From Kappaphycus alvarezii (lineage: Eukaryota; Rhodophyta; Florideophyceae; Gigartinales; Solieriaceae), in NCBI GenBank assembly GCA_002205965.3, contig NADL03000611.1, positions 930,001-994,000 on the forward strand: 64,000 bases of DNA, in the 5' to 3' direction. The notes beneath the pieces were generated by a model that was given only the letters and a program-made list of their open reading frames with translations, did no database searches and was not told the origin of the DNA. Shown one piece after another: positions 5,707 through 39,588 of the stretch (its first letter is position 1; each line of letters begins with the position of its first letter). The position numbers and the translations under genes were made by a program.

Positions 5707-6461
5707 TTACATTTCTTCCTTATCTTCTGCTAGGATGAAGTCAGAAAGAGAAATTTCATTTGAGAAAGCCCAGTTTACTAATAGTGTTGATATATGAATT
5801 ATCGACCGTTGAAAACGTTCCTGTGCGGCAGACGGAACCCTGATTACCATTTTATACATCAAATCTGTCTCTGCAGCCACAACGTAGATACAAAATGGGA
5901 CTTGTAGAACTATACATTGGTGTTTTACTTGTCCCATGAGCTCATTTGGCATGTACTTCCTGCAAGTGTCATCTCCAATATTACAGAGAACGATATCAGG
6001 GGAAGATATACCAAAAGATTCTTTTAACGCGTTAGAAGTTATCTTTTTCTTAATCTCTAGTGGCGCCAACATAATACTCCGACCTTCAAAACCAGGAAGC
6101 ACTGCTTCGTGTTTCCACTCCTCAAACGACCCGATGTCCATCAATAATATCCCATCAGGAGAATATGCAAGATATCTTGAAGATTTAATTACGCACTGCC
6201 ATTTTGAAAGATTTAATTTACAGAATCCAATGATCTTAACGCACCCATACCCGCACTTTCGTTTGTAGTCCCTCTCTTCATGGCTTCCGTCGAGACCTGG
6301 GAACTAAACCACCCAGATTTTAATACTTGATACCATTCCATCACCGTCTTTTCATTTGACCCACCCCGAGCCGTTATTTTATGGCGGCAAAAGATATGAA
6401 AAGTAGTCCGGCGTTTGTACCAGTGACCCTGAACTAACGCCGGACAAACTAATCGGAGCAA
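5707..6461 (-). pseudogene. YqaJ-like PD-(D/E)XK nuclease domain of the transposon
   Basis: Frame 6461-6213 carries RRTTFHIFCRHKITARGG and SNEKTVMEWY, then 'RGTTNESAGMGALRSLDSV'. After a frame change, 6170-5707 carries YLAYSPDGILLMD, then APLEIKKK, then 'GQVKHQCIVLQVPFCIYVVA'. S-P-D-G-I followed by E-I-K is the catalytic signature of the lambda-exonuclease/YqaJ nuclease fold, and the Q-x-x-H-Q helix followed by a YVVA strand fits the same family. The catalytic motif looks intact although the reading frame is broken. It lies immediately downstream of the transposase core in the same orientation. Confidence 0.65.
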
Positions 6462-7693
6462 CGCTGTCCCAACGTCAAGACCTCACATTGCTCCCCATCC
6501 TTATTCCGAGCCACTTGTTGCATTATTTTCATGGTCTCATCTGCCTGTCTCTCGCCACTGCAAATGGTGTGGCTCAATGGGATGTGAGCTTTTGTAACAG
6601 AAATAAACGTGTTAAGGATTTCTTGCAATGAGGTTGGAACGGTGTACATGAATCTAAGCACATTCGAAAACCTCTCCGTTCCATGCTCCCTTACAGCAAC
6701 TGCTTTAATAAGATTACTCGCCGTCCTTGATCTGACTCCGGGCATAGCTTTGGATGCAAACAATACCTCTGGACCCATTCCAGGACCATCATCCACCACG
6801 AAGTCCTTGCGCCTGTCATATTCACACAGGTCACTTCGCCATGCAGCCTCCTTTCCCTCATTTCTACTCTCAACAGCTGATTCAGTAACTGGACGACCTT
6901 CTCCCGCTGCAACAACTGACTCAACATCCTCAACTTCTTCCGATACTCCTTCCCTTCTTGCTGTCTCCTCTCCATCTGCTTCTAACCTAGAATCCACTCC
7001 CATCTCTTCTTCCAAGTCTTGCCTGCATAGTCTGCAATAAGACTTACCAACAAATTGATGACTTTTTAATATAACGTCTGGCATAGTCAACAACGAACAC
7101 ACCCCAAATTCCATCAGTATGCGAACTAGAGCCTCCTTTCCATAACCCCTATCGGCTGTGATAACACATGCATCCAAAGAAGTCTCGCCTCTCTCTTCTA
7201 AAAGTTTCTCAAGCAGCTTCTTAGCAGACAACTGTTGAAGCTCTCTTCTCCTTCTAAATCTTATTGAATTAGTATCCCTAAACTGCGCATCTGCTACACA
7301 ATCTGCACTGTGCCCTTCTCGATCTGCTTTCCTTGTACTAATAATCCCTCGTCCCATGCAGGTCATCATCAAGTGTTCCAAGAGGTGAAGAGGTTCAAAG
7401 AAAACTTTGCGGCTCTCTGAAAAATCTATGGTCTCAACTCCTGTGAGGCTCTGAGATAGATCGGGTTGTTCTGTCCATTTTTCCTCTCCCTCCATTCCTC
7501 TACCCGTTACAGGATATTCCAATACATTTGTAAAGGTGTATCTCAACAGATCCAAATTTGGAGCTGTACTGCCGGCTATTCTTAGAGTCGAGACTGCCTT
7601 CTCAACACTGAAACCAGTAGTGTGCGAAAAAATAAAACAGCGACAAAACGATACATGTCGGACATGGAGGCCCCTTGATAGATCCCCTTTCAT
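6449..7693 (-). pseudogene. DDE-like transposase core
   Basis: A single open frame of 414 codons, the longest unbroken part of this element. Key stretches: residues 50-60 around LDLLRYTFTNVLEY; residues 118-135 'RKADREGHSADCVADAQF'; residues 177-190 'VITADRGYGKEALVRIL', a strand-Asp-R-G-Y-G motif typical of the second acidic residue of RNase-H-fold (DDE) transposases; and 'AVAVREHGTERFSNVLRFMY' near residue 350. A Glu/Ser-rich acidic linker lies at about residues 230-285. I cannot name the superfamily with certainty. The frame ends at the junction with the nuclease domain. Confidence 0.6.
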
Positions 7694-7893
7694 TACCTTT
7701 CTCCAACCGAAGTTGCTCGTTCATTCATTCCAGAAGCTGTCTCAAAATTTGATTCATCATGAGCACAAATATTCCTCCTCTTGCCTGTGTAAGACCCTTT
7801 ACCTCCAACTCTAACCGTAAGTTTGTCATTACCGCTCTGCAGTATACCTCGCCCGATATTGCATCACGCGTTCGGAAAAATTTTTTTCCATCA

Positions 7894-20616: not shown

Positions 20617-21371
20617 TCATGGCAGAGGCAGCGGCATTCGTAAGAATATTGGTTTGGTTGTAGCGCCAATACCCCGCGTGCTAATCATGGTCAAGACCCC
20701 GCCGGTAAAGCCGCCGGCCAGGGTGGGATTGAGCAAATCACGTCGGCCCCTCATTCTCATCAGCGAGCATCTCGATGTGCCATACAAGGCAGTCCATGCG
20801 GCAAACTGTCCCGCATTACGAACCGCACCCATCCCAGCATACGACGCCGCGGCAGAGCCGCGATAGCCGGATTGCACGGCCGTGGAAAGAGCTGGACAGG
20901 ATAATTGAGCAAGGCGAACAACAGAAAGAAAATCCGTTTGGGAATAATTTCGGAATGTGCAGGAAGATTAGTAACTTTTGACGGGGCGCGGAAGCAGATG
21001 TTTTGCGCTTGATGGACTTGGATTGAACGCAGATGTAGACGCGACAAGACAGTGATAAAAAGAGAATGACTTTTGAACGTACCCATGGCACCGCCGAAAA
21101 CAGAGCCGACTACGGCGCCGCGTACACCGTGGGCTAGACCCACGGCGATACAGTTGGGACCTCTTGCACCATATGAGAGAGAGGTGGGGGTGATAACGGG
21201 AGCGCCGGAGGCGTCGAGAAGACTGAGGGGGGATAGAGAGGGGTGGATGTGTTGGGGTGTTGTGGCTGAGGAAAGGCCCGCAGTTTTGGGAGGCGAAAAT
21301 GCGTTACGAAGAAGAGAAGACGGGAAAGGAGGATACTGCGAGCAGGTAGGGCAGTAGACGGGAGGGGACAT
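20617..21371 (-). CDS. TIM17/TIM22/TIM23-family inner-membrane protein, one intron
   Basis: Exon 1 runs from ATG at 21371 to 21083. A 191-base intron (21082-20892) starts GTACGT and ends TCCAG. Exon 2 runs from 20891 to the stop at 20617. The phases agree, and the splice joins GVRGAVVGSVFGGAM to 'LSTAVQSGYRGSAAASYAGM'. The C-terminal half fits the PRAT signature of this family: Y-x10-R-x3-D-x6-A-G-x3-G at YGTSRCSLMRMRGRRD followed by LLNPTLAGGFTGG. Family members form translocation channels in the mitochondrial inner membrane or related carriers in plastid envelopes. Total about 187 residues, usual for TIM22 types. Which member it is cannot be told. It is divergent from the RAD1 gene. Confidence 0.75.
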
Positions 21372-21700
21372 GACTGAGAGGTGAAACAAACAAAATTGCA
21401 CGCGTGGATTGTCAGAAGGCGACGGGGGAGGGGGAAGGAAGGTAAAGTCGCGAAGCTGCGTAAGAGACGGGCAAAAGAATGGTCGCTCAGAAATCCCTCC
21501 TGGACCGCCAAACAAAGATGGCCGGCCATTGGCAAGGGGCGTGCGCCATACCATGCACTGTCGTGTACCCACAATACTGTACTGTACTGTACAGTATTGT
21601 GTACAGCACTCTTACTGTACTGTACTGTACCATGCCAACATACCATTTTGTAACAGCCCGCAATCCACCCCGCACACCATGCTCCATCTCCCTCACCAGA
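21372..21700. promoter_or_regulatory. shared divergent promoter region between TIM22-like gene and RAD1
   Basis: About 330 bases separate the two divergent start codons. At 21583-21632 the segment contains two arrays of the CTGTA pentamer flanking a TACAGTATTGTGTACA spacer, giving near-palindromic GTACTGTAC blocks. Similar blocks lie upstream of the 688-aa gene. No TATA box is obvious. The regulatory role is inferred from position and recurrence only. Confidence 0.4.
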
Positions 21701-22651
21701 ATGCCATCACAGAATGCACCACCGCCACCGCCGGTACTATTCGGACGTCTCGACTCGATCAAGCCGTTAATCGACGCCCTATCATGCATCTACAGTGCGC
21801 AGCACAAATCGCAAGAGGTGCTGATTCGGACGCATCCGGGGGGTGGGCTAAAGTTCACGGTAGCGCATCGCGGGTCGCTTCTTGCCAGCGTAATAGTGCC
21901 GCGTAGCTCGTTTCTAGAGTTCACACATGCGGAGGAACCCACGCCTTGGCTACGTGTGAATTTGTCGTTGTTGTTGGAGTGTTTGAATATATTCGGGGGC
22001 GGTGGAGGTGGAGAGCGGTTTTCGACGGCGTCGGTGACATTGAGTTATGCAGGGGAGGGATATCCGTTGGAGATACGGGTGATGGATGGGGAGAAGGATT
22101 GTGTGTGTAGTTTGGTGACGATTGGGGAGGGGGTGTGGACGAGGGTGTGGGAGAGGAGGATGGGTTTCAGTTTCATGTGCACGAGATGGTGAACATGGCG
22201 GTGGTATCTGCGGAGGTGTTACGGGAAGCGATTATGGAGCTGGATTATAACGGGGCGAGTACCGCAGAGTTGAGGATGTCGCCGGAGAAGCCGAGATTCG
22301 CGCTGGCGTCACCGGCGTGGGGAGGGGAAACGGGAGTGGGGGTGGGGGGTCTGTGAAGTGGAGTTGGCGGACCCGGGGGATCGGAGGGTGGATATGTTTC
22401 AGGTGTTTGAGAGCAGGAGGACGCAGGTGGGGAGGTTTCGGTTGGAGGGGTTGGCGAGGTGTGTAAAGGCGTTGGGGAGATCGGAGAGTTGTAAGGTGGA
22501 GATGAATGATGTGGGAATGGTAAGTGTGATGTGTAGAATGCGGGGTGACGAAGGTGGCGGTGCGGATGAGAGTTGTTTTGTCGAGTTTGTCATTGTGGCG
22601 TTGGAAATCGAGGAGGAAGAGGAGGAGGAGGAGGAGGGAGAAGATGAATGA
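21701..22651 (+). CDS. RAD1: RAD1-like subunit of the 9-1-1 DNA damage clamp
   Basis: RAD1 forms, with RAD9 and HUS1, a PCNA-like ring that marks damaged DNA for checkpoint kinase signalling. The protein starts at ATG 21701 (MPSQNAPPPPPV). It shows 'LFGRLDSIKPLIDALSCIY', GLKFTVAHRGSLLASVIV, 'FLEFTHAEEPTPWLRVNLSL', LLECLNIFG and LSYAGEGYPLEI, the usual RAD1 N-terminal clamp domain. The second domain, DGFQFHVHEMVNMAVVSAEV and 'LREAIMELDYNGASTAELRM' then SPEKPRFALAS, lies in a different frame (22135-22340). The end, 'CFVEFVIVALEIEEEEEE', is back in the first frame. Two compensating frame changes in G-rich runs (about 22118-22135 and 22335-22350) are needed. They are probably sequence errors, since the domains on both sides are well conserved. 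The length of about 316 residues fits the family. Confidence 0.8.
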
Positions 22652-22929: not shown

Positions 22930-24261
22930 CCAAATTCCGCTCCATCCTCTTCAACCCCCTCCCCTCCCCCAGAGACCTCTTCAATCTCTGACCCAATTCC
23001 GCCACATCCTCTCCTCACCCTCCCCGACATCAGCACAATCACATCAACAGATTTTCACACATATTCTATCCTCTCATCACCCATCCACCACCATAACCGC
23101 CATCTCAAACACCCCTGGGGCTCGGGGTGGCCCCGGCCCCCCTCTCCCGCCCCAACCCCTCCCAACGCTCGCGTCCTCGCCGTCGTCATCTCCTATGGTC
23201 TCTCCTCCCTCGGCGGAGTCTTTGTAAACAAAGCATGTCTCTCCGCTTTCAACTTTGGCTACACCGTTACCCTCATGCTTGCCCAACTCTGCGTTTCGGT
23301 CTCCGCCCTCACCCTACTCAACCTTTTCGGTCTTATCTCCCTCCCCAGACGTCATCCCCGTCAACTCGTAATTCTTGTCTTCCCGGCCACCTTTTTCATC
23401 GCAAACGTCACCGTCGGTCTTCTCGCTCTCAAGCTCGTAAACATACCTATGTTCTCCGCCTTTCGTCGCCTCTCCGTCTTGTCCGTCATGCTTTTGGAGT
23501 GGGTTGTTCTTGGCAAGACGGCCTCTCGTCGCATTCTTGTGACCGTTTTTGTTATGGTCTGTGGTAGCTTTTTCGCCGGTCTCGGCGACCTTGCGTTTGA
23601 TCCACTGGGTTACTTCTTGGTCCTCGTCAACAACTTTATCACCGCTGCAAATCTCGTCTCCATTAAGAAAGCCACCGCCGTTATCTCTCTCGACGCTCTT
23701 TCCCTCTTCTACTACATTTCCCTCATCTCCCTCCCCGTCGTCTTTCTTCTTGCCCTCCTTTCCGGCGAACTCACCCTCGCCCTTCGCGAAATTCATTCCC
23801 GACCCGACCTCCAATCCCCCTCGTTCATTTTTGCTTTGTCCCTGTCAGCCGCTTCCGCATTTCTCATTAACTTTTTCACAAACATGTGTACACAGCTCAC
23901 TTCTCCGCTAACCACTGCCATTACCGGCCAAATGAAAAACGTCCTCCAAACCATCCTAGGCATATTCGCGTTTGGCTATCAAGTCACACCGCTCAATCTT
24001 TTTGGTCTCGCGGTCGCCCTGGGAGGCTCCCTGACCTTTGCCTCATACAAGTACCAAGACGCTCAAAATGCAAGGCTTGCGAAGCAGGCCAAGGATCAAG
24101 CTAAACCTCCCGCACTCGTCATGTCCCAGTCCGTGCCCGCAAAGTTTCAGGACAGCAATGCAGCCGCCAGGCCTACTGCTGAAGATGAAAAGTTCGGGCT
24201 GCTCCGACACTCTGCTAGAACCAGCTTCTCAGCCCTGCCAATCCCAATGTCACGGTCCTGA
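22930..24261 (+). CDS. nucleotide-sugar transporter, SLC35D-like (drug/metabolite transporter superfamily)
   Basis: Multi-spanning membrane protein of Golgi/ER type that exchanges cytosolic UDP- or GDP-sugars for nucleoside monophosphates. From about 23161 the frame gives 'VLAVVISYGLSSLGGVFVNK' (helix 1 and the conserved VNK), then helices up to 'NLFGLAVALGGSLTFASYKY'. Family marks include 'NIPMFSAFRRLSVLSVMLLE' (PMFTVLRRxxIxxTMxxE), GDLAFDPLGYFLVLVNN and 'TSPLTTAITGQMKNVLQTIL' (SALTTxxxGxxKN). About nine to ten helices. The frame is open from 22930 but I find no in-frame ATG before 23275 (helix 2). The true start is therefore upstream across an intron, non-ATG, or hidden by an error. The C-terminal 60 residues are polar. 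Confidence 0.8.
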   Translation, partial: PNSAPSSSTPSPPPETSSISDPIPPHPLLTLPDISTITSTDFHTYSILSSPIHHHNRHLKHPWGSGWPRPPSPAPTPPNARVLAVVISYGLSSLGGVFVNKACLSAFNFGYTVTLMLAQLCVSVSALTLLNLFGLISLPRRHPRQLVILVFPATFFIANVTVGLLALKLVNIPMFSAFRRLSVLSVMLLEWVVLGKTASRRILVTVFVMVCGSFFAGLGDLAFDPLGYFLVLVNNFITAANLVSIKKATAVISLDALSLFYYISLISLPVVFLLALLSGELTLALREIHSRPDLQSPSFIFALSLSAASAFLINFFTNMCTQLTSPLTTAITGQMKNVLQTILGIFAFGYQVTPLNLFGLAVALGGSLTFASYKYQDAQNARLAKQAKDQAKPPALVMSQSVPAKFQDSNAAARPTAEDEKFGLLRHSARTSFSALPIPMSRS

Positions 24262-24981: not shown

Positions 24982-27900
24982 TTACGCGTTGCGCTTTTCT
25001 CCTCCAGCCCGTGCCAACAATTTCAACGCGAAAAGGCCAACACCGCCAACGACAGCAGAGGCACCCATCATGATACTGTTTCTAACTCCCGCATCCCTGC
25101 TTCTCCGACTAGCAGACGTCCTTCTACTAGACGATACCGATGGCGCCCGCCTAGGAGCTAGGTGACGATCAAAATGCCTGTCAAACGACAGGTCAGACGT
25201 GCGCCTCAAGTCCTCCATTTCCAACTTGTGTTCAACCGCCATTGACATTTTCTCAGATGCAAAGCGCTCCTCAGCAGTTCGCATTTTCTCCGACAGATTA
25301 TCACGTTCAAATTCGACACGAGCCTTACTACCAGACAACTCTTCTATCTGTGCCCTCATTCTTATCAACTCAGCCTCTGCAGAGCTAAACTTTCCTTCAA
25401 ATGAACGCAACCGATCCACTTGACTCTGCAACTCAAGGATTTTCTGTCGTTCCTCGCTCAATCGACCTTCTTGCCTCATGAGTTTATCCTCTTGCTCTCT
25501 CATAGATGCTTTTGCCGATTCTAATGAACTGGATAAATCCTTGTTCAGAGTCTCCAAGGTTGATATACGATCTCCCTGGAATTTTCCTTCCGAACGTGCC
25601 ATTTCAAGTCTCCGCTCAGCGGTTTCTCTGTCTACAATGAGTTTGCTTTGTTCGCTTTCCATGTTACTGATACGTGCATTGCTATGCGATACATTCTCAT
25701 TGGCACGGGATAACTCATCACTCATCTCGGCAATTCGTGACTCAAGTGCAACGATGTCTTCCAGCTTGGCCTGAACTTCATTTTCGGCCTCTAACACTCT
25801 GGCCTCTGCCTGCTCGCCGAACTCCTCGATCTGGGCATAAATATTTCGGCCTTGATCCCTAAGGCCTGCTGCTTCTTGCTCGGCCTGGTCAGCTCGTAAC
25901 GTTTCCTCACTCATAGCCATTTCGAGTTCAGAAATGCCATTCGCTGCTTTCGCCAGTTCTTCCTCTAGGTCATTCGCTCTAATCTCAGCTTCCTCTGCCA
26001 GCCTAATCGCTTCTTCTAGATCTGATTTCATAGTTTCAACAGCCTGATCTGCCTCTTCAATTTGCTTTGCTAGATCCCCGTTCACAACCGCAAGCTCTTC
26101 ACGCTGGCGCATCTCTTCGTCTCTTTCCGCGGTCAACGTGGTTTCTTTCTCGCTGTTCTCGGTGCAGACCTTTTCAAGCCGTTCATTTAGGTCTGCCACT
26201 ACCAGTTTCAAATTTGCTGATTCCGCCTCTAAGGCGGTAAGGTTCTCCTGAAGTGTTACCGCTTCATGAGTCGTCCTCTGCAACTCACTGGACAACTGCT
26301 CCTTCTGTAACTCATAGTCATCCACCGTTGCTTTATGAGCATCTTGCTCGGAGGCGTAAAGCTCCTCAAACTCATGCAACTTTCCTTCCTGCTCGGCAAC
26401 TTTGTTTAGAAGGCAAGTTCGAGCTTCTGTCCCTTCGATATTGTCAGCCTCAAGAGACTTTAAACGTGTATGCGCAACCTGCAGGTCCTTTTGTAATGTT
26501 TTCCTTTCATCCTCATTATTCTTTGACAATAGGCCAAGCTGCTCAACCTCCGCAACCGCTTGTTCATACTTCAAATGCTTTTCAGAAGCCTCCTGCTCAA
26601 GCGCGGAAACTTTGTCAACGTAGACTTTTGCCTGCTCTGTTACTGACTCGATTTCAGTTTCAGCACCACGGAGTTTTTCCTCGAGGTCTCTCTGAATATT
26701 TGTTAGAGATTCTACTCCCTTCTGTTTCTCCTCCGCATTGGATAGCGCAATACTCTTCTCCTCCGCCTCACGAGTAAGATTAAGTTGAACTTCGTGGAGC
26801 TCTTTCTCAGTGGCGGAGTGTCTCTCTTCTAGATCTACAATACGCTGTTGAGCCTCAGCAAGGGAATTCTTTGACTCGGAGAGTGCTCTATTGACATCTG
26901 CCAAATCCAAGGTCATGTTGTCAAGTTCTTGAATGACCTCAACTCGCTGGTTGTTGAGTGATGTAATCGAGCACTCCCTGTCCTCAACTTCTTGGGTCAC
27001 TGCCTGCAATTTTTTTTCTAGGCCTTTCAAAACATCATTTTGCTTGTCTGCTTCTGAAACTAGGAAATCGATTCTTGCATCCCGTTCTGTAATAGCAACT
27101 TCTTGATCAGAGCATGCTTTTTCGGCCTTTTTTAGGGCGACCTCTGCTGATCGCAGACTATCTTGGATCTCGCTAACGCGCTTTAGGGAAAGATCCCAGT
27201 TACTCTTATGTTTGGCGGATTCGTCTGTGGCAATCGCTAATTGTGCTGAGAGCTGCTCCTGGGAACTTGCGAGATCCCGATTTTCAGTGGAAAGCGCCGT
27301 GATTCGATCACGAAGATCGCTACTCATTGTTTCTGATTCCGCTTGTTCTTTCTCCAATCTTTCGATGCGACGGATGCGATCATCCGCTCCCTAGCCATGG
27401 ATGCGGCCTCCCGAGCAGCTTCATCCATTTGGGAATTCAGTGACAACCGCTCGTTATCCAGGTCTTGCTTGCTCTTCTCCAAAGCCGTAATCTGCGTCTC
27501 AAGCTCAGCGACACGCTTCCTACTCTCACTTAGTTCTGTTTTTGCGTTATTCAGCAATCTAGTACTCTCGTCACGTTCTCCTTGAGCCTCAAGGAGCTCC
27601 GTGCTCATAGCAGCCATCCGTTGTGCGGTCTCAAAACTCCTAGATTCGTAGTTTGAGGACTTTTCCGTAGACGCGTTCAAAGTAGCTTGCAACTCATCAA
27701 TTTGAGTCTTTTGCACACTGACGATACGTTCAAACTCTGGTAGCTTCATTACATCCTCAGAGAGCTTATGGTTCTCGCGAATCACGTCCCTCACTTCTTG
27801 CTCAAGATTTTCAATCTTCGCTGAGCTTGACGATAACGCAGACGTAAGTTCCGTAATACGTTCCTCGGATTTTCTCACCTGCGCGGTGGTCTGTGAAAGC

Positions 27901-30172
27901 TCTTTCTCCGCCGAAGTGATGTCTGCCTCGTAATCCTTGATTCGGCGCATTCTGTCTTCGGCATCAGCCTCAGCTTGTTTAGCGTGTTTCTCAGAGTCCG
28001 CAAAAGAATTCTCCAGCCTTGCTTTCTCCTCCTCGAGATCCTCCACCTGTCTCCGTCGCGCTTCGGACTCCTTCTCGACGACATGAAGCCGTGACGTATT
28101 TTGCCGCAACTCGTCCAAGCTGCTGCTTAGCTTCTCCGAAATTCTCGCTGCCTCTTCCTTCGACATCTCCATTGCCGATTCAGCCTGACTCGCCCTACGC
28201 TCTGCATCACGAGATGCTGTGTGAAGTGAGAACACTCGATCACGAGCGTCCTGAAGCTCGGCCTTCAACTCGTCCTCTGCGTGTCTGGCAGAAGTTTTCA
28301 AGTCAGCGATCTTCGTGTTTGCCCTTTCGAGGTGCCACTTAGAGTCCTCGACATCTTGGACTGCAGCCTCCATCTTCGCGCTCAAGCTTTTCAGTTCCCT
28401 TTCCTTACTTGTCACTGCGTCCTGGGCTTCGTCCAGCTGCAATGCCAATTCGCGGCGCTCTTTCGTCCAGGCTACTCGAGCATTCCCGTGTTCCTCACGA
28501 GCAGTCTCCAGCTTACTTTCCCATTCAGCCAGTTCTTTCGCTCTACTAGAATCTAGGTCAGCCTTCTCCTTGCCGAAAGCTGCTTTCTGCTTTTCAACCT
28601 GCCGCGTCGCTACCTCCAACTCCTGTCTTGTGTGCTCCAATTCCTCACTCGAGACCCTCTCCATCCTTTCTTCCAAGCTCTTGCTCTTCCTCTCTGCCTC
28701 TTCTACCTCCCCCTCATTTGCTGTAAGTCCCGCTCTAATGCTGCAAGCTCTGCCTTTGCTTCACCATACTTGCCCTCCATCCTTTCCGCCAACTTTTCTG
28801 CTGCCTTCACCTCGTCTGTTCTCAGACTCAATAGCCTCTCTAGTTCACTCACACGCGCGGCTGCATCACTGCCTTCTCCTTTGGCTACTTCCAATCCCCT
28901 CTCCAAGGCGCGAACCTCTCTCTCCATTCTACTACTATCCGCCTCCACGGTCTCCAATTGCCTACGAACTTGGTTCAACTCCGCAATCTTCTCACGGACC
29001 TCCTGCTCTGCGGCCTCTCTTATCTGCGCGGCTCTGCCACTCTTCCCCTCTTCAGCCTTGAGAGCTTCCTCCAACTTTTGCACATGCCTACCCATCCTGT
29101 CAATGGTCTTCTGATGGCCGATACTCTCGTTCTCCACATCTGCCAAACTCCTTTCCGCAATAGCCAACTTTTTGTTTAATTCGCTTATCTCCCTCGCTTT
29201 CCTCAACATGGCACTTTCTGCAGCCTTCTCCCGTTGCATCATTTCCTTGACACTCTTCGCATCACCACTCTCAACCTCTTTCTTCAAAGTACTTACTTCC
29301 TTCGTGCGAGCTGCAACTTCTCCCTTCAGAGCTCTGATTTCATTCTGCAACTGACTCACCATCTTCCCGGAGCCTGTGACCCTAGCTCTTTCCTTTCCTA
29401 GTTCTGCTTTGGCTTCCTCCAGCTCCTCCCTGAGACTATCACCCTCATTACCACCTTTGACGAGGTCTTCCAGCTCTTTGACCCTCTTTCTCAAACTTTC
29501 CCTCTCAGTCGCGATGTCCTGAAAGGCCCTCTTGAAACTATCCGAGACATCAGTAGTAAAGCCACCCGCACCCTCCACCCATTGCATCGGGACAGCGCCA
29601 CCTAACTCCAAAGGCCTGGCTGTGATGCCATCAGCTGATGTGACAGCTCTCAATCGCGCGCTTTCCGATCTTGGTGGAGTACCCGAGACAGCCTTGACAC
29701 CTGTACCAGATTCCCTCGACCCTCTCCTCCCTGACGTACTGATTGGCGGCGGAAGTTTGTCGCTCTCCGCCCTAGGTCTCATGTTAGACATTGTTGGAGG
29801 GGGTGGCGGAGGCGGCGGCGGTGGCGGTGGCGGAGGTGCGGATGATGCTTGACGCACAGGAGCTGATCTTGTAGAGATTCGGGACGAGGAGTTTGAGTCC
29901 GAAGGGCGACGAGTTGGAGATGGTGTTATGGAAGCAACGGAAGACTCGTCGGTAGGAAGCTCGGAGGAAGAAGGAAGAGATGTAGTCGATGAGGTGTTCG
30001 AGAGGGCACGAGGGACGGTTGGCTCGTTGGAACTCCGTTTGCGGGTGGAGGTTAACGGTAAAGGGTACGGACGGGACAGGGTGGCAGAGGTCACAGGGGG
30101 TGCGGACTTTTGGGACTTTTCGTGGCGGCGGCGTGTGAAACCGCGGAGAATGGAGCCGTGCCCCGACGACAT
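24982..30172 (-). CDS. very large coiled-coil protein with C-terminal membrane anchor (golgin-like), two frame breaks
   Basis: Reading from ATG 30172 downward: residues 1-110 are Ser/Thr/Arg-rich and disordered; then a run of 14 Pro (DNA about 29795-29840); residues 180-225 contain a short ordered stretch ('LGGAVPMQWVEGAGGFTTDV'). About 1,450 residues of near-continuous heptad coiled coil follow. Near the C-terminus a basic Ser/Arg segment (RRAPSVSSSRRTSASRRSR) precedes a hydrophobic helix SIMMGASAVVGGVGLFALKL (about 25010-25070) and a short tail. This is the plan of tail-anchored tethers such as golgins. The coiled coil continues through two 1-base frame changes, at the C5 run 28709-28713 and near 27385-27398. 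They may be sequence errors or may make it a pseudogene. Total about 1,730 residues. No motor or enzymatic domain is seen. Confidence 0.7.
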
Positions 30173-32753
30173 TTCTCCGTGTGGGATGGTTGGGGACGAA
30201 AGGGAAGGGGACGCCTGGGAGGTGGCACGCTGTAATAAGGGGAGGGAGGCGATAGGTGACAGTGATCTTTGAGCGGTACGATGGGAGGTATCTTTGTCCC
30301 TGTCAAGTGGGTAAGCGTCTTGCGGTCGAACTGAAATGGCTTAAAAAAGAGAGAACTGGGTTGAAAATGCCGATTTAAGATTTCCGTTTTGGGTTGTTGT
30401 TTAAAGGAGTGTGGTGGGGTCAATTTGGTCTCACATGCGGGGTGAAAACAAGGTTCAGTTGTTCTTTTTTTGGTTCTATTTTGACCGGCGAATGTGGGCT
30501 GTGGCGATTTGTTTTGCAGGATTGTGGGACCTGGACCTTCCGGGTTGGTGGTTTTGATCCCGCCCTATTTTTTTAAAACTTTACAATTTTTAAAATTGGT
30601 TTTGACCGTTCATGACAAATGCGGCTCAAATGGACCCACGTGGACACGTGTCAAAGGAGATATTCGCGTGGGTACAGCAGTACAAGAGTATCTTCTTGTG
30701 TGGATCTCGAAGCTGTTGAGGTGTGCCAGGCCGAGAAAGTTTTTTGACACATCGTCTGTAATCTTGCGCCTTGCACTTCCGCGCCACCCTGATACAGTAT
30801 GGTGTTGATATTTGCGTCAATACCACTAGCATGATATCGGCACTCATATCAACGGTATTGGCATCATCAGCATTCAAACTCTGCGTTGTTCTTACTTTAC
30901 TAATTTAACCTACTGTGGTAGTGGGTTGCCGCTAGACCGTGCCTAGCGGGGATAACGGGTTACTCAGGGTGGCAGATGCCCCTGCCGTGCCATACGGTAG
31001 CATGCGAGCACGTGGCACAGCAGCAACATTCAACCAGATAGCGGAGCTTAGCGGTTGATGATTTTGCGCCTTGGCTGTTGGTTAGAGTTGGGCGAAGCGA
31101 AACGCGATTTGATGTACAATCTCGTCGAGTACACGTCTCGTACGCTCGGATGTCACATCGAGGGTATCGAAACCAGGGGATCAAGGTGCCAAGAGACGTG
31201 AAGGGACGCATCGCCGTCGGCGAGGAGCACGAGCGCGTATTCTGCGGATGAACTACATCTTGGCGTTGCTGAAATAGCATTTCCTGTTGTAATACTGTAC
31301 GCACTGTCATGGTACCTACTGTACGATACTGGCAATGCTGTAAAGTGCTTCGTTCATTACACGTTTCGATTCATTTTATTTCAGGCATCTTTCAAATATT
31401 AGAGAACCCAACCTTTCCCTCCCTTTTATTTCGACGGGGGTGGTCGTCAAAAGGACAGAAGACAAATGTTCTACTTTACACTAGTGGGTGGATCTATATA
31501 CAGTATGCACACTCATACTGTATGTACTGTACAGTACTGTGTGGTGTTGCTGCAGGCTATGAACTGCTCCATAAATTTCTTCTGCACAGTACAGTACTGT
31601 ACGTACATTACAGTATTGTTAGTACCGCTGTTAACAGCACTGTTGATACTGTCAAGATTGCTGCAGTGCTGTACTGTACAGTAGCTGATGGAGGTTTCTG
31701 CAGTACAGTTCTGTAGCCCAGTACTGTACAGTAGTACCTCAACAAAGCTTTCCCAACTCAAAATTACGTACTGTACGTAACTAGAGAAACACTACCATAT
31801 TCAATCACTGCAAGTTTGCAACACCACCTTGGCACAAACAGGTGGCTCAAGAAAGAGTACAGCACACTCCCACATCTAAAAGTATACGGAACCACACTCC
31901 CTTCCGTCCACAGGTGCCCTCTACCTCAAACTCTCGTCAACCGGAAGACAAAACCCCAAGTCCCCGACCTTTCCCCCCGCATGCACCCTCATTGTTAACC
32001 GTCACACGTTCCAATCATCAACCGCTTGTACGACACATTGCATGCCCCTCTTGGCCTTGAAACTCACTGACAACCTCCAAACTCCCTACCAATGAACGAA
32101 CACCTGCCTTGATCGTAGCAACCAACGCGTCCCAGGTCGTCTCGTAAATAAATGTAGATTAAGACAGCAAAAATGCTGCGGTCACATCGACATTGCCACA
32201 TGTTGACGAACATTGGACTATGTGGTGCGTCTTTTTGTACATGTGTGTAGCATGCCCGTCTACTTGATAACTTGAGGTCTTCTCGCTCTACGGGGCGTAA
32301 AAGCTGGCGAAAGGTGAGTTTTTAAAGGCTGCGATAATGCTATTTGTTATCTCAGCCATGCGAAATGGCACGATAGCGGAAAGGTCGCTTTTTCATTGTG
32401 AGAGTGCTTCGGGAGATGGATGCAGTATGCGAGGCAAGAAGCGAGGGCGATGCGGTCTTTTGCACGCAGCAATGGCAGAGCGGTGCACTCTGTCCTTGCT
32501 GCGGAGGAAGGAGTGCACAGCTCAGTGCTTACAGTAATGTACAGTTTGGCACCATTGTTGCGAGAATTGTGGCAATCGTCGCATACTTCCTGTATCATAC
32601 AGTCACAAGTGCCAATCATCATCCGGCTGGGTAGAAATTTTCTACTACAGTAGGCCGTACTGTACTGTACAGTATGATGGGGACAAACGTTGCATTGTTG
32701 ATTGTTTTTAAATATTTTAAAGTACTGTACAGTACAATACTGTACTAAACGGG
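30173..32753. other. intergenic region with dense CTGTA/TACAG motifs
   Basis: 2.6 kb without a recognised gene. 30.2-30.45 kb is the likely promoter of the coiled-coil gene. From 31505 to 31775 there are about a dozen short blocks of GTACTGTAC/TACAGTAC in both orientations within 270 bases, and more at 32520-32760, running up to the edge of the gypsy element. Open frames here (31309-31716, 32347-32799 minus) are low in content, and their Tyr-Cys-Thr-Val repeats are simply translated pentamers. Confidence 0.55.
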
Positions 32754-32921
32754 TTATATTTGTACAGTATTTTAGACTACAGTACTGAAATTTATGCATT
32801 TTGTAGGAAACGCCGGCCGCTTCTATCTACATGCGTTTCGGCGCTTGCCTATACTGTATATGTAGGCGAGGCATCGTATGCGCGCGAGTAAAGAGAGGAC
32901 ACACAAAGACTTACACCAGCA
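32754..32921 (+). repeat. 5' LTR of the gypsy element
   Basis: Shares with the 3' block the stretches TAGGAAACGCCGGCCGCTT (32803-32822), GCGTTTCGG, TTGCCTATA and GCGCGAGTAAAGAGAGGA. It ends ACACCAGCA; the base run directly after begins TGG, as a tRNA primer-binding site would. The left border is uncertain because pentamer repeats adjoin it. The two LTRs differ at many positions, so the insertion is old. Confidence 0.65.
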
Positions 32922-33648
32922 TGGTACTCTTGCGCAGGACTAAAACTCCTGGCGCCAGCACGGTAGTGTTCGACGGCACTAGCGATGTGCGCAAATTCTT
33001 CTTTTTCTATGAGAACGTCATTATGACCTCTAGACCCAATCCGGAGAAAGCACTTACCCTCCATGGACACATAGACGGCTTGGCTTTCGATTTCTACTAC
33101 GATAAATTCGCCTTAAATGGCGAACTCATAGACGAGGCAAAAGACTACTCCATTGTCATGCAAAAATTTTCCGAGTACTTCGTCAAGGAAGAAGACTCCC
33201 AAGACGTCATCCAAAAACCTTTAAAAGTTGGACTCGACATTGAAGACATTTATGGCTCCCTGAAGGAGATATATCGCCTTTATGAGGACTCTTACGAACC
33301 GCCACCTGTCGCCACGAGTAGCTACATAATTTCTTCGCTTTCCGTGGGCCTCGAGATTAATCAAGCATCAAAAAAGCTCTAAAAGACTCTCAGTCGAATC
33401 GCCTTACGTTCATTGGCTCTTCAAGCCAAGTTTCAGACGTCCCAACAGCCAAGTTGTTAGCTCGTCCGGACTCCCATTCCAGAAACATCGAGGACAAATT
33501 GGACGCTCTAGCTGAGGATCTCTCCAGACTGACATTGTTTTTAAAGAATAAGAAGAGAGATAACAGTGGAGGACCTTTTCCGGCACAACAGAGGGGCAGA
33601 AAGGTCTTCCGTGCTCTTATTGCAACGAAAAAAGGTCACAACTCTTAG
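32921..33648 (+). pseudogene. gypsy gag (capsid region)
   Basis: ATG at 32921, immediately after the LTR, opens a 153-codon frame to 33382. 'FDGTSDVRKFFFFYENVIM' then HIDGLAFDFYYDKF and YSIVMQKFSEYFVKEED are typical of the gypsy gag capsid (F-x-G-x2-D...FF...G.A..FY...Y..V...F...F). After a stop the theme continues in another frame to 33648 (VSDVPTAKLLARPDSH, 'NIEDKLDALAEDLSRLTLFL'), a short coiled-coil-like end. The frameshift and stop break the protein. Gag packages the element RNA into virus-like particles. Confidence 0.65.
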
Positions 33649-34688: not shown

Positions 34689-36300
34689 TGGCCGGAGTCA
34701 TCGGATTTGTCCGAAGAAGAACTTGTTTTGTTCATCCGTTGAGACGTACTGGAACACGAAGATGAGAAGCCCTCTGGCGGAGAAAGCACAACCGATGATG
34801 AAGAAGATGAAGTTCGTGGCGCTCTGGTTGCTCTTCTAGCGCACCTTCGAGAAGAAGACCAAGGGCGAATAAATGATTCCCTCCAAAGCAGTAGAATAGT
34901 CGCTTGGAAGATTGACGAGCTCCAACCGGCCGCGGTTCCATGGCAACAAAAGTTTGAGCTAAAGGACCAAAATACAGTTTACAACTGAGCTTGTCGCATG
35001 ACTCCGCGTCACAATGATACAGTCCTACAAGAAGTTGATAAAATTCTGAAAACACGTATTATTGTCCCAGCGTCTTCTGCATAGTCCATTCATGTAGTGA
35101 TCGCCTCCAAGGAGGACGGAAAGACCAGATTCTGTGGGGTCTACCGCACTCTGAACCGTAAAATGAAGGCTGATCGTTGGCCTCTGCCCAAGATAGAGTA
35201 AATATTCGATGACCTAAAAGGTAGCTCGGTATTCACTACCCTCGACTTGTTCGCAGGATACTGGCAGACTCGCATGAGCTTGGAATGTAATGAGATGAAT
35301 ACTTTTGTTTGCCGTTATGGGACGTTCAAGTTTGAGGATATGCCCTTTGGTCTCATCAATGCGCCGTCAACTTTGCAGCGCATGATAGACTATGTTTTAC
35401 GGGACAATCACTTTGCCCGCGTTTATCTGGACGATTTTGTCGTCTTTTCTAACTCCGTCGAGGAGAACATTGATCATTTAAATAGAATTTTCAACGCTAT
35501 CTGAAAGGCGGGTTTGACGGTCAAGATCACAAAGTCTGACTTTGCGAAACCAGCTGTGAAGTTGCTGGGACACAAAGTTGACAAAAACGGAGTTCACGTC
35601 GACGAAGAGAAGACTAAGGCCATCAAGGAGTCCCCGGTTCCGACAGATAAGACTGAGTCGCGCGGTTTCCTTGGCCTCGCCGGTTACTACCGTAGTTTTA
35701 TCTGTGGCTTCGCCAAGATTTCAGCCGCATTACATGCTTCTACGTCTGGCAATAAGGATTTCAACTGGACAAAGGAAGGGATGGAGGCATTCGAGACTTT
35801 GAAAGAGAAGCTCACAACTCCACCGGTTCTGGTATTTCCAGAATTCGATTCCCGATTTATAGTGGAAACTGACGCTTCAAACGTCGCGGTAGGGACAGTC
35901 TTCTCCCAGAAAAAGGTATTCGGGAAGATACACCCCGTGTTTTACGCTAGTCGCACCATGAATTAGGCTGAGAAGAACTATTCCGCATGTGAGAGGGAAG
36001 CTCAGGCGGTAATTTTCGCCTTTCGGAAGTTTCGGGTATACTTTTTGTCGAAAAAGCCATTCAGGTTGGTTATCGATAATCAAGCCCTTCGCTACGCCTT
36101 GAAAAGGAACGACATATATGGAAGTTTGGCGCGGTGGATGGAACTTCTTGCTGAGTACGAGTTAGAAGTGGAGTTTAGGCCGGGCGCAAATAATTGCGCC
36201 GCGGACCACCTTTCGCGAGCCGTCCCTACTGATTCCACACCATCCACAGGGGTCGACGAAGGATAATTAGTTGCAGCAGTTGGTTTAGTCGCTGTCGTGG
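34689..36300 (+). pseudogene. gypsy reverse transcriptase and RNase H
   Basis: One frame carries the full RT: 'TRFCGVYRTLNRKMKADRWP', VFTTLDLFAGYWQ (first Asp), PFGLINAPSTLQRM, RVYLDDFVVFS (YLDD catalytic pair) and 'RGFLGLAGYYRSFICGFAKI'. RNase H follows with VETDASNVAVGTVF, YSACEREAQAVIFAF, FRLVIDNQALRYAL and NNCAADHLSRA, so the four acidic residues are present. In-frame stops at 34986, 35082, 35199, 35502, 35964 and 36264. The one at 35082 stands where Trp is conserved and the one at 35964 where Gln is conserved. All catalytic residues remain, so decay looks recent relative to domain divergence. Confidence 0.85.
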
Positions 36301-36317: not shown

Positions 36318-37455
36318 TCCCATCTTGTTGAGGTCGCTGGTCATCTGCGGGAGTTTAAGATGGAAGAAGAAGACGAAACCAAGAGGCGTGCAATCAAGCG
36401 TATGGCGAAGCGCTTCATGGTTTGGGAATGTAAACTACTAAGACGCACGAAAATGAGACTCAAATATGTCCCCTTACTTGAGGATAGGACGTCGATACTA
36501 CACAGCTTCCACGACGATATTGGACACAGGGACACTGAAACCAAGAAGAAGTTCGTCTCTGACCACTACTGGTGGCCTTATATGCATAAGGACATCCAAA
36601 ACTACGTGAACAAGTTGTGCGGGATGCCAGAAGACAAACACGATTCCACCTTACAGTACAAGCGTGAAAATCCCACTTTCAAACATATTCGAGACTTATT
36701 CGATCGATTTCGACGGGCCGCTTCCGAAGCCGAAGGGCGGGAATGGTTTTTTGCTCATTGCGGTAGGGCATTTAAAGGGCAGGCCAACAGATTCGGCCAC
36801 CGTAGATTCGTCGGCCGGAACTGTTGCTCAGTTTATAAAGAACGAAATTTCGTTCCATTTTGGCCCACCGAAAACCATTGTATCCGACAACGCGGGATGA
36901 ATCATCGCTGATTCCCTTATCTCCATTTTGGGGAAACACGTAATCGATTGGAGCACTGCTCTGGCCTACGACTCCATGTCGAATGGTAGGGCCGAGACGG
37001 TGGTACGGACCATCAAGACTGCCGTCAAGAAAATTATTCTAGGCCAGGGAATGGATTGGAAGGAGAGTCTGTCGAACGTGTTGTATGGATACTGCCGTCT
37101 TCGTCACACCTCCGGATCACCCGCGTTCGAGTTAATGTACGGACTTGTGCTACATATGGAATCATCAGATACCCTAGCTCTCATTTCCAACGCCTCGGAG
37201 AGCCATCGCTGATTGGAGTTGGTAGCAAACGTGGCACTCCGGGCACGAAGAAGGGATGAACAAGAGCTTGTATTTAGAAATAAGGCATTCGCGGAACCTG
37301 TAGGGTTCAATGTCGTCGACTGGGTCTTTTTCGCACCTGGGGCGGCCTTGCCGACAACAGTTAAATGGCCAGCTCTCAAGTCAAGATACTTCGGGCCGTG
37401 CCAGATATGGAAAGGTGTTCCTTTTGCAGTTCGCCCCAGAAATCTGCAAAATTAG
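36318..37455 (+). pseudogene. gypsy integrase
   Basis: Zinc-binding HHCC module: LHSFHDDIGHRDT then DHYWWPYMHKDIQNYV and LCGMPEDK, with the second Cys of C-x2-C lost. After a one-base insertion near 36681 the core follows: ETYSIDFDGPLPKPKGG (first Asp), GPPKTIVSDNAG (second Asp) and 'SNGRAETVVRTIKTAVKKII' (Glu), a complete DDE triad. C-terminal 'WPALKSRYFGPCQIWKG' fits the GPF/Y module of gypsy integrases. Stops at 36898 and 37210. No chromodomain is visible. Confidence 0.8.
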
Positions 37456-37669: not shown

Positions 37670-38702
37670 TCACTGCATGGAGCTACTCTGTTCCCCCTTT
37701 ATCAGCGACTGCGCGCCGCAACTTTTACGGATTTCCGATCTGGTCCCGCCACGGCGGCGTAGACGCTTTGATGCCAGTCCACTTCTCGGAGAGAGCTTTC
37801 GAACTTCCAGGATCGTGGTGCAACTCAAACTTCCGCCCACACATTCAACTAAGGACTTCTCGGATAGCTCAGGAACGAAAGTTTCAGCGGGGTTGAGGAG
37901 ATGACCTGTCCGAGAATTCATCGCGGCGTAGTGTCTGACGCCGTCGGAAACTTCTACAGAGAAGATAAAGACGGCGGGGTCCAAGGCCAACGCAGATTTA
38001 ACGGAAAGGTACATCGACAGAGGTTTTTCGAGCACAATTTCCCTAGGTGGTAGGTGCTTTTATGCGGCCCGTAGGTCTCTACTACCGCCCCATCACAAGT
38101 AATTCGCGTGGCATCGAACCATATTTGACTGGAAGTAGTCAAACCAACGCTTCGTGTCGGCCTGCTTCGTAAATCTTGCAACCAATTTGCGATGAGGGCG
38201 CCAATGCACCCTTCCGTCTGGTACAAAAAGGGGCCTTGAGGAGAAGGAAAGAAAAATCCCTGGTCTCATCAACATGAGGCTCCGAAAGCGAGTGAAAGAA
38301 AGAAGAAGCTTTCGGCCAGGGTGCTCCTGCCACCATTCGTGGATTTCGAAGATCGCCTCCCAACGGCTATCCGAGCCCAAGATGAATAGGCCCTCTTCGT
38401 CGATATCGTGCATGAAGGAGCTGCATCCACCCTAAAAGGAAAGGTTATACAGGAGGATAGTATGAAAGTCCCTGGTGGCGTCTTCTTCTCCATTATACAC
38501 CGCTTCTTTCTCATCCCATGCTATGGACTTGACTATCCAATCTGTTTTGGACACCGCTTTATATATACGGAGTCATAAAGGGATTCCGGCAAGCTCAATT
38601 GGCAGGCGACTTCCTTCGTAAGCTCCCTGGTAGGCAAGGCGGAAGCTGCGTTCATAATATTATTTCCGAATAAGGATGGAAAGGGGTAAGCGCGAACCCT
38701 TG
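37670..38702 (-). pseudogene. antisense gene of the gypsy element, main body, unknown domain
   Basis: Minus-strand coding sequence continuing from the H3-like N-terminus. One frame runs from about 38699 to 38093 with stops near 38655, 38581 and 38430, and resumes in the same frame at 38035-37670. Recognisable protein-like stretches: 'YERSFRLAYQGAYEGSRLPI', VSKTDWIVKSIAWDEKEAV, LFILGSDSRWEAIFEIHEWW and 'ALALDPAVFIFSVEVSDGVR'. A local frame change at about 38050-38100 joins FDATRITCDGAVVETYGPH. At least 330 residues in total. I recognise no family. It lies wholly between integrase and 3' LTR, opposite to pol, and may be an accessory gene carried by this element lineage. Confidence 0.5.
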
Positions 38703-38948
38703 TCATCCGTGGGACCCAAAGGGGAAAACAACGGGTTCGGACTCGTTTGACGAAATGTACTTGATCTCAGTAATGTCCGATCTCCCAAGAAGGGCTCTTG
38801 TCTGCGGAGGTAGCTTGGACTGGGCTTCGGCGTCCGCTTTCCTCGACATCCTCGCCGCCTTGGTAGCTATCTTCTTCCGGGGCGCTTTGCCTCCCGTGCT
38901 CAACCTAGCCAACTGCTCCTTCCGCGCTATTGTGGTGTTTGTCGACAA
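38703..38948 (-). pseudogene. histone H3 N-terminal tail mimic (N-terminus of the antisense gene)
   Basis: Minus-strand open frame with ARKEQLARLSTGGKAPRKK followed by IATKAARMSRKA (codons 38927 down to about 38837). Against the H3 tail A1-A31 it matches 22 of 31 positions without a gap, including S10-K18 and A21-R26 complete. Differences: T3K, K4E, T6L, K9L, Q19K, L20I, K27M, A29R, P30K. The codon before A1 (38930-38928) is ATA where H3 genes have the start ATG, and a stop lies 18 bases upstream, so this copy probably lost its start by one G-to-A change. The tail is followed by about 45 residues with no histone fold, then a stop or frame change leading into the antisense body. It is too short and too altered to be a working histone gene. 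Confidence 0.7.
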
Positions 38949-39434: not shown

Positions 39435-39588
39435 TGTATTTGTATTATAGACTACAATACTGAGATTTATTTATTTTCTAGGAAACGCCGGCCGCTTTTC
39501 GCCACACGCGTTTCGGGGATTGCCTATATATATATGCGAGTCGCCGGATGCGCGCGAGTAAAGAGAGGAAACATAACGACCGACACCA
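39435..39588 (+). repeat. 3' LTR of the gypsy element
   Basis: 154 bases beginning TGTATTTG and ending GACACCA (TG...CA), with a purine-rich tract (GGGTTGGGAGGGCTGGAAGGG split by short gaps, 39370-39391) upstream that may be the remains of the polypurine tract. Shares the GGAAACGCCGGCCGCTT, GCGTTTCGG and CGCGCGAGTAAAGAGAGG blocks with the 5' LTR. TATATATATATG at about 39525 is a likely TATA box. Confidence 0.65.

Follow-up and report, generated by a model that had tools for sequence, protein, structure and literature searches.

Does a short antisense reading frame that resembles the tail of histone H3, lying inside a gypsy retrotransposon of the red alga Kappaphycus alvarezii, represent a stray remnant of a host histone gene, or is it the trace of a gene that the element itself has kept, and if so, what could such a tail do? 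The stretch of DNA analysed here, referred to as the window, comprises 64,000 nucleotides (contig NADL03000611.1 of assembly GCA_002205965.3, positions 930,001 to 994,000 of the forward strand). An earlier note, made from the letters of this window, had proposed that the frame encodes a decoy of the H3 tail in which K4, K9 and K27 are replaced. In this study I compare the frame with its sister copies in the genome, with related proteins outside it and with the host's own chromatin genes.

Results

The open frame occupies positions 38703-38948 on the minus strand of the 64-kb window and consists of 81 codons and a stop, TGA, covering the tail and the first part of the linker behind it. Both the frame and its ungapped match to H3 residues A1-A31 (38835-38927, minus strand), with 22 of 31 positions identical from A1 onwards, were reproduced, and a phmmer search against PDB chains recovers histone H3 at E 6e-7. 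The differences from H3 are T3K, K4E, T6L, K9L, Q19K, L20I, K27M, A29R and P30K. As noted earlier, the codon preceding A1 (38928-38930, minus strand) is ATA in this copy. The remainder of the gene, the body with a Cys-His-Asp domain, runs through 37739-38655 of the same strand in more than one frame and with stops. Alignment places the C-terminal piece, with an H...(N/D)P motif and a basic end, at 37739-38059 on the minus strand. The full gene in the window spans approximately 37739-38930 (minus strand), and the tail frame makes up roughly its first fifth. This copy is a decayed member of a repeated gene family. A histone pseudogene that includes the fold is excluded, as Pfam gives no match to the histone fold PF00125 in the window frame, the gene pieces or the family members, and the similarity between the family profile and PDB H3 chains, in the best 60 of 135 rows, extends only over about residues 1-37.

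The carrier element lies on the plus strand. Comparison of its long terminal repeats (LTRs) identifies parts of the 5' and the 3' copy at 32767-32918 and 39442-39588, which are only 81% identical over 152 columns, and the insertion in the window is therefore old. Also on the plus strand are an open frame near the 5' LTR that is kept in sister copies (32807-33379; gag-like by position only), the end of the probable reverse transcriptase (RT), named by its position and likewise kept in sister copies (35505-35963), RNase H (35967-36266; PF17917, 1.3e-15) and a region of broken frames, presumably the integrase on the same grounds (36318-37212), two pieces of which were scanned against Pfam and had no match. 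The order RT, RNase H, integrase, together with the LTRs, is that of a gypsy LTR retrotransposon, and the H3-like frame sits on the opposite strand, in the interval that separates the integrase region from the 3' LTR. When 20 gene copies of lineage I were read with 10 kb of context, 13 were accompanied on the opposite strand by RT, RNase H and the two integrase pieces at approximately equal spacing (L015 and L016, both among the 13, are closely similar copies). In one copy, L021, an integrase piece alone lies alongside the gene, and six copies have no such pol nearby, although in one of these, L022, RT and RNase H are present but oriented the other way round. The single lineage-II copy read with context shows the same antisense arrangement, with an RT that is 52% identical. 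The antisense location described from the window copy is thus shared by most of the copies read in context, and the gene is a standing antisense part of one gypsy family.

The wider window has features of its own. In 2-kb blocks, the G+C content is 41-54% as far as 40 kb and falls to 30-39% between 40 and 62 kb, with the shift just outside the element. An open frame on the plus strand (22930-24258) belongs to the triose-phosphate/nucleotide-sugar transporter family (PF03151, 3e-18). Three consecutive long frames on the minus strand (24985-30340) are seemingly rich in coiled coil and perhaps represent one large gene with introns or frame breaks, and two further long frames (198 and 423 codons) lie at 5710-7720, minus strand, with no Pfam match. 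Runs of TACTGTA-like short repeats (for example at 21137-21706 and 32350-32826) give rise to TVQYSTVQY-like strings in several frames.

In the genome (336.0 Mb in 884 contigs), the window frame has at least 150 matches, 150 of 390 candidates being scored, and many of these matches have long open frames; the 150 listed include the window's own match and some split ones. A lineage-II copy as query has at least 125 matches (112 of 908 candidates scored). By these searches, candidate members of the family number in the hundreds in the 336-Mb genome. Several pairs of loci have equal scores or nearly equal sequences (L030/L032, C447/C585, C536/C710 and C530/C809), which suggests that haplotypes are separate in the assembly, and the copy counts may therefore be inflated. 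Most copies that were read carry damage. A coding stretch of about 400 codons could be pieced together by alignment of copies, and related proteins have 403 and 416 residues. They start with the H3 tail, continue with a conserved domain containing Cys, His and Asp, and end in a basic segment. In a set of eight copies, an ATG stands before A1 in four (L005-L008) and an in-frame stop lies a few codons upstream in six. Sister copies with ATG in this place, whose existence had only been supposed, account for 63 of the 91 tails sampled below. The antisense accessory gene encodes a protein of about 400 residues that opens with H3 residues 1-28, usually after an ATG.

The 91 distinct tails comprise 20 of lineage I with context (the window included, and L016, the near copy of L015, left out), nine and two from separate sets of copies, and 60 from hit tables; L053 is tail-less. 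The latter 60 were picked mostly for a match that starts near residue 1, so that the sample favours copies that keep the tail. Lineages were assigned by eye, the register of L065 is uncertain, and both copies of lineage VI have stops. In total, 80 tails are stop-free, and 57 of these have the ATG. Residue 9 is L in 81 tails, F in four, W in one, E in one and K in four; the four tails that keep K9 make up lineage V and all have R8A, and the pair R8-K9 occurs in none of the 91. Residue 27 is V in 38, M in 29, I in 12, F in five, T in three, N in two, E in one and K in one, and different lineages use different residues here. The pair R26-K27 is found in one tail only (L058, whose tail is interrupted by a stop). 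Both ARKS sites of the H3 tail are spoiled, with residue 27 nearly always hydrophobic and with either L at position 9 or R8 lost. A hydrophobic residue in place of K27, which is the feature of EZHIP and of the H3K27M inhibitors, is present as V, M, I or F in 84 tails.

The earlier description of the tail was only partly upheld by these copies. Replacement of K9 and K27 stands in most lineages, whereas K4 is kept in 78 of 91 tails; because of this, the K4E of the window is to be read as private decay, and K4 as a replaced target site is ruled out, the change being private to the window and a few copies. In lineage V, K4R or K4L is seen in four of four tails and residue 27 is still hydrophobic. 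K14, K18 and K23 had been described as kept, which holds for K23 (87 of 91) and in part for K18 (63 of 91) and residue 14 (K in 40, R in 39, another residue in 12). Conservation of K9L and K27M between copies had been made a test; the former is widespread and not universal, and the latter is confined to the 29 tails with M, one of several residues at 27, so that K27M alone was rejected as the signature of the family. In lineages I and II, the changes T6L, Q19K/N and L20I have reached much the same degree of fixation as K9L, a point in favour of some founder effect. At position 9, TTG is the prevailing codon in lineages I, II and IV, and CTC prevails in III and VI. The lineage-I copies have TTG (37) or TTT (three) here and no synonymous change, so that the counts within this lineage give no sign of selection on residue 9 alone.

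The reading frame is under purifying selection. Pairwise comparison of 20 lineage-I copies gave a dN/dS of 0.24 for codons 1-31 and of 0.41 when the stretch was extended to codons 1-69. The two alternative forward frames had values of 1.06 and 1.45 and the three reverse frames 1.08, 1.89 and 0.55, and the value for the 60 nt preceding the frame was 1.00. With larger sets, dN/dS over codons 1-31 was 0.29 both in lineage I (n = 40) and in lineage II (n = 36); one reverse frame gave 0.47 and 0.41, presumably a reflection of shared third positions, and values of 1.0-1.8 came from all the others. The comparison of dN/dS across copies, proposed in the earlier note, thus indicates unequal synonymous and non-synonymous change and argues against random decay. 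Distinct changes overall show a slight excess of synonymous ones (p 0.012 in lineage I, 0.017 in lineage II). Among changes found in two or more copies, 35 are synonymous and 42 non-synonymous in lineage I (p 8.3e-5), and 41 and 39, respectively, in lineage II (p 2.5e-5), whereas changes in single copies (16 vs. 59 and 19 vs. 63) follow the expectation for neutral decay; all these tests assume that changes are independent and that all base changes are equally likely. As shared changes are enriched in synonymous ones and single-copy changes are neutral, the gene was maintained during multiplication of the elements, with decay setting in once a copy had inserted. Synonymous sites are saturated between lineages I and II (pS 0.73; pN 0.24). 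The tail DNA shares no more than 68% identity with any of three host H3 genes, with lineage means of 44-61%, and the capture is therefore old.

A protein search with a single ORF scored 983 candidates outside the genome, none at E <= 1. A first profile search recovered three short metagenome pieces and one ordinary H3, and a later one 13 proteins at E <= 1 among 7996 candidates scored. Among these are three Chondrus crispus proteins of 351-403 amino acids, 31-34% identical over the whole query, in which K27 is replaced by F or V; Chondrus and Kappaphycus both belong to the Gigartinales. Further relatives are P0006, P0010 and P0014, and the others are histones or H3-tail proteins that are built differently; P0015, P0016 and P0018, all with PF00125, are also among the 13. 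The body of P0014 is related as well, with a profile comparison probability of 98% that is partly owed to the tail. The tails of the outside relatives differ from H3 at the sites of interest by R8A and K27F (P0007), R8A, R26C and K27V (P0008), R2K, R8Q and K27L (P0006), K4R, R8Q and K27V (P0010) and R8A and K27M (P0014), all of which keep K9, and by R8A, K9N and K27F (P0009) and K9L and K27V (P0002). Hence none of the seven has K27 (two F, three V, one L, one M) or the pair R8-K9, while K9 itself is kept in five and is N in one more. Taken together, the tails from outside and from the genome indicate that the deep feature is the loss of K27 and of the R8-K9 pair, through either residue, and K9L looks like a later form. 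Two other proteins, P0013 and P0017, have an H3 tail with K14M (P0013 also with K27L, P0017 with K23M and K27R) and other C termini with no clear Pfam match, and are perhaps independent mimics of the H3 tail.

In alignments of the lineages and relatives, the C-terminal third of the protein shows a Cys (in CIGxS..N or CISAA), a His and an Asp in fixed order and a basic end, and this domain is conserved as far as Chondrus. The Cys is lost in L009, L010 and L013, the aligned His in L009, L047 and L052, and the Asp is Asn in the window copy. In papain-like folds a helix lies near the Cys and the His is on a strand. A model of the domain shows a helix beginning close to the Cys and a strand that bears the His, at low confidence (pLDDT 55, pTM 0.50), and a model of the whole protein is poor (pLDDT 51). 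Searches of Pfam, NCBIfam and PDB with the domain gave no convincing match. By its residue order and its modelled fold the domain is possibly protease-like, with Cys, His and Asp in the order of papain.

Three phycobilisome matches in the genome, the Chondrus relatives and the C terminus of the host's H3 all speak for a red alga, probably a florideophyte, as host, and a fungal host was rejected on these grounds; contaminating cyanobacterial DNA may account for the phycobilisome matches. Canonical H3 genes are present in the same genome, and L037 and L039 together form a divergent H3 in two pieces (with a probable intron), perhaps the host's centromeric variant. The host also has an EZH2-like gene, found at two places of equal score, with a CXC domain (4e-7) and a SET domain whose best PDB match is EZH2 (2e-36). 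SET genes of the K36 and K4 types are present as well, as judged by matches of their SET domains to PDB chains. For a K9 methyltransferase, six of 43 SET matches were fetched and five compared with PDB (L114 was left out); none was clearly of the K9 type, and L119 had no clear type. Genome searches for Pre-SET and chromoshadow domains gave no match, nor did their controls.

Discussion

The explanation that I favour, tentatively and at rather less than an even chance, is that the gypsy-borne H3 tail acts as a decoy that disarms the Polycomb methyltransferase of the host, and perhaps its K9 methyltransferase, and that it is coupled to a protease-like effector domain. Removal of the initial Met would leave a free, H3-like N terminus that could be displayed in the nucleus. 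R26 followed by M, I, V, F or L at position 27 would then occupy the SET channel of host PRC2 (E(z)) and stay unmethylated, in the manner of H3K27M and EZHIP, and less H3K27me3 would be laid down at new copies of the element. With K27 closed to marking, and K9 probably closed as well, the tail would recruit no silencing readers, while the ARTKQ end would still offer the K4 site in most lineages. The C-terminal domain, if it is a papain-like protease, may act on the silencing complex that the tail reaches.

In favour of this reading, about 50% of the repetitive elements of the red alga C. merolae are covered by H3K27me3 (PMC5405695). EZHIP is described as a competitive inhibitor of PRC2 whose K27M-like VRMR motif resembles unmodifiable H3K27M (PMC12713659), and K9M and K27M peptides are described in complex with their SET enzymes, K27I being reported from leukaemia (PMC6562757). 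On the other hand, the residues do not all fit. M and I are strong PRC2-blocking residues at position 27, whereas I know of no good blocking by V, F, T or L, and that V is the commonest residue here is a point against the decoy. Loss of R8 would be expected to spoil K9 methylation; K9 itself, however, is kept in lineage V and in most outside relatives, which counts against the K9 part of the decoy reading, and this part is weaker than the Polycomb part. The fixation of T6L, Q19K/N and L20I is unexplained by any decoy model, and neither does a decoy account for the larger C-terminal part of the protein, which needs a role of its own.

The main rival, unlikely on balance yet to be taken seriously, is that the H3 tail is an address label and not an inhibitor. 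The free ARTKQ end would be read by PHD fingers, K4 methyltransferases or H3 chaperones and would bring the C-terminal domain or the integration complex to active chromatin, K9 and K27 having been lost so that the tail is never read as silent. That A1, R2 and K4 are kept in most tails, that the host has SET genes of the K4 type and that the C-terminal domain is conserved to Chondrus are all in line with such a label; the K4R or K4L of lineage V and the K4R of P0010 are not, as residue 27 is still hydrophobic there.

Alternatively, and with a still smaller probability, the tail may be a ready-made basic segment for nuclear entry or stability, in which the state of residues 9 and 27 is an accident of the original capture, followed only by drift. 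Tail and C terminus are both basic, the persistence of founder changes is evident from T6, Q19 and L20, all of them replaced for good in lineages I and II, and lineage I has only non-synonymous changes at residue 27, a pattern that drift among codons close to ATG, which itself has no synonym, would produce. However, a basic signal does not need A1-S28 to be conserved at a dN/dS of 0.29 and up to the saturation of synonymous sites between lineages I and II, nor does it account for the loss of K27 to different residues in separate lineages and in Chondrus while residue 23 stays K nearly throughout.

It is improbable that the working part is a cysteine peptidase of the element, directed at SUMO, ubiquitin or histone tails, with the H3 tail as its pseudo-substrate or autoinhibitory segment. 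The fixed order of Cys, His and Asp across aligned lineages and relatives, and the helix and strand of the model, would suit this proposal, but the model has a pLDDT of only 55, the database searches returned nothing convincing, and Cys or His is lost in L009, L010, L013, L047 and L052. Finally, a one-off capture of a piece of host H3 followed by random decay, to which the damage in most copies and the neutral single-copy changes might have pointed, has a negligible probability and is excluded by the hundreds of candidate copies with their shared placement, by purifying selection and by relatives in another genus.

Several parts of this arrangement are known separately. The Gypsy elements Retand, Grande and RIRE2 of plants likewise carry an accessory gene in antisense between pol and the 3' LTR in many copies (PMC11963269), as the algal family does in 13 of the 20 copies read in context; the function of these plant ORFs is given as unknown there. 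The antisense ORFs of Retand, from flowering plants, have TRP28 and other domains (PMC11963269), whereas the algal gene joins an H3 tail to an unrelated domain with no Pfam match: TRP28 (PF04195) was not among the Pfam matches of 31 members, which gave four weak families with a best E of 0.046. HBZ of HTLV-1 is another antisense gene of a retroelement that encodes a nuclear protein (PMC11963269), the protein itself being unrelated. EZHIP/CATACOMB of placental mammals is similar in that a histone-tail motif has Met for lysine with R preceding it (PMC12713659), but it is a host gene with a short motif, whereas the algal gene belongs to a mobile element, has the whole tail from A1 with both ARKS sites spoiled and often has V, I or F at 27, its inhibition of PRC2 being putative. 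The H3L gene of a hAT transposon in Pyrenophora tritici-repentis is likewise an H3-like gene carried and multiplied by an element, a DNA transposon with 26 very similar copies, with a histone fold and with insertions in the tail (PMC3538342). The algal gene, in contrast, lacks the fold and the full H3-like protein, sits in an LTR element, and is old and diverse. HBZ lies near the 3' LTR of its virus. VANC of VANDAL21 is an anti-silencing protein of a transposon and not a histone mimic, and the likeness, an element protein that counters host silencing, holds only if the decoy reading is true.

Conclusions

Antisense genes before the 3' LTR, an H3-like gene in a transposon and K27M mimicry are thus all known, and the algal gene joins these kinds. 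Among the matches listed from open-licence PMC papers, no title or abstract describes an H3-tail mimic borne by a retrotransposon, and I know of no mobile element that uses histone mimicry against its own silencing; the gene would be categorically new if the decoy were shown. PRC2 marks transposons in several eukaryotes, including red algae. The H3 tails of the family described here, with M, I, V, F or L at residue 27, amount to a natural library that selection has preserved beside a conserved effector domain, and with peptides made from it an arms race between PRC2 and the elements could be tested directly. If the decoy reading is true, the K27M trick of tumours would also have arisen in a red alga, and the library would show which substitutions evolution accepts.
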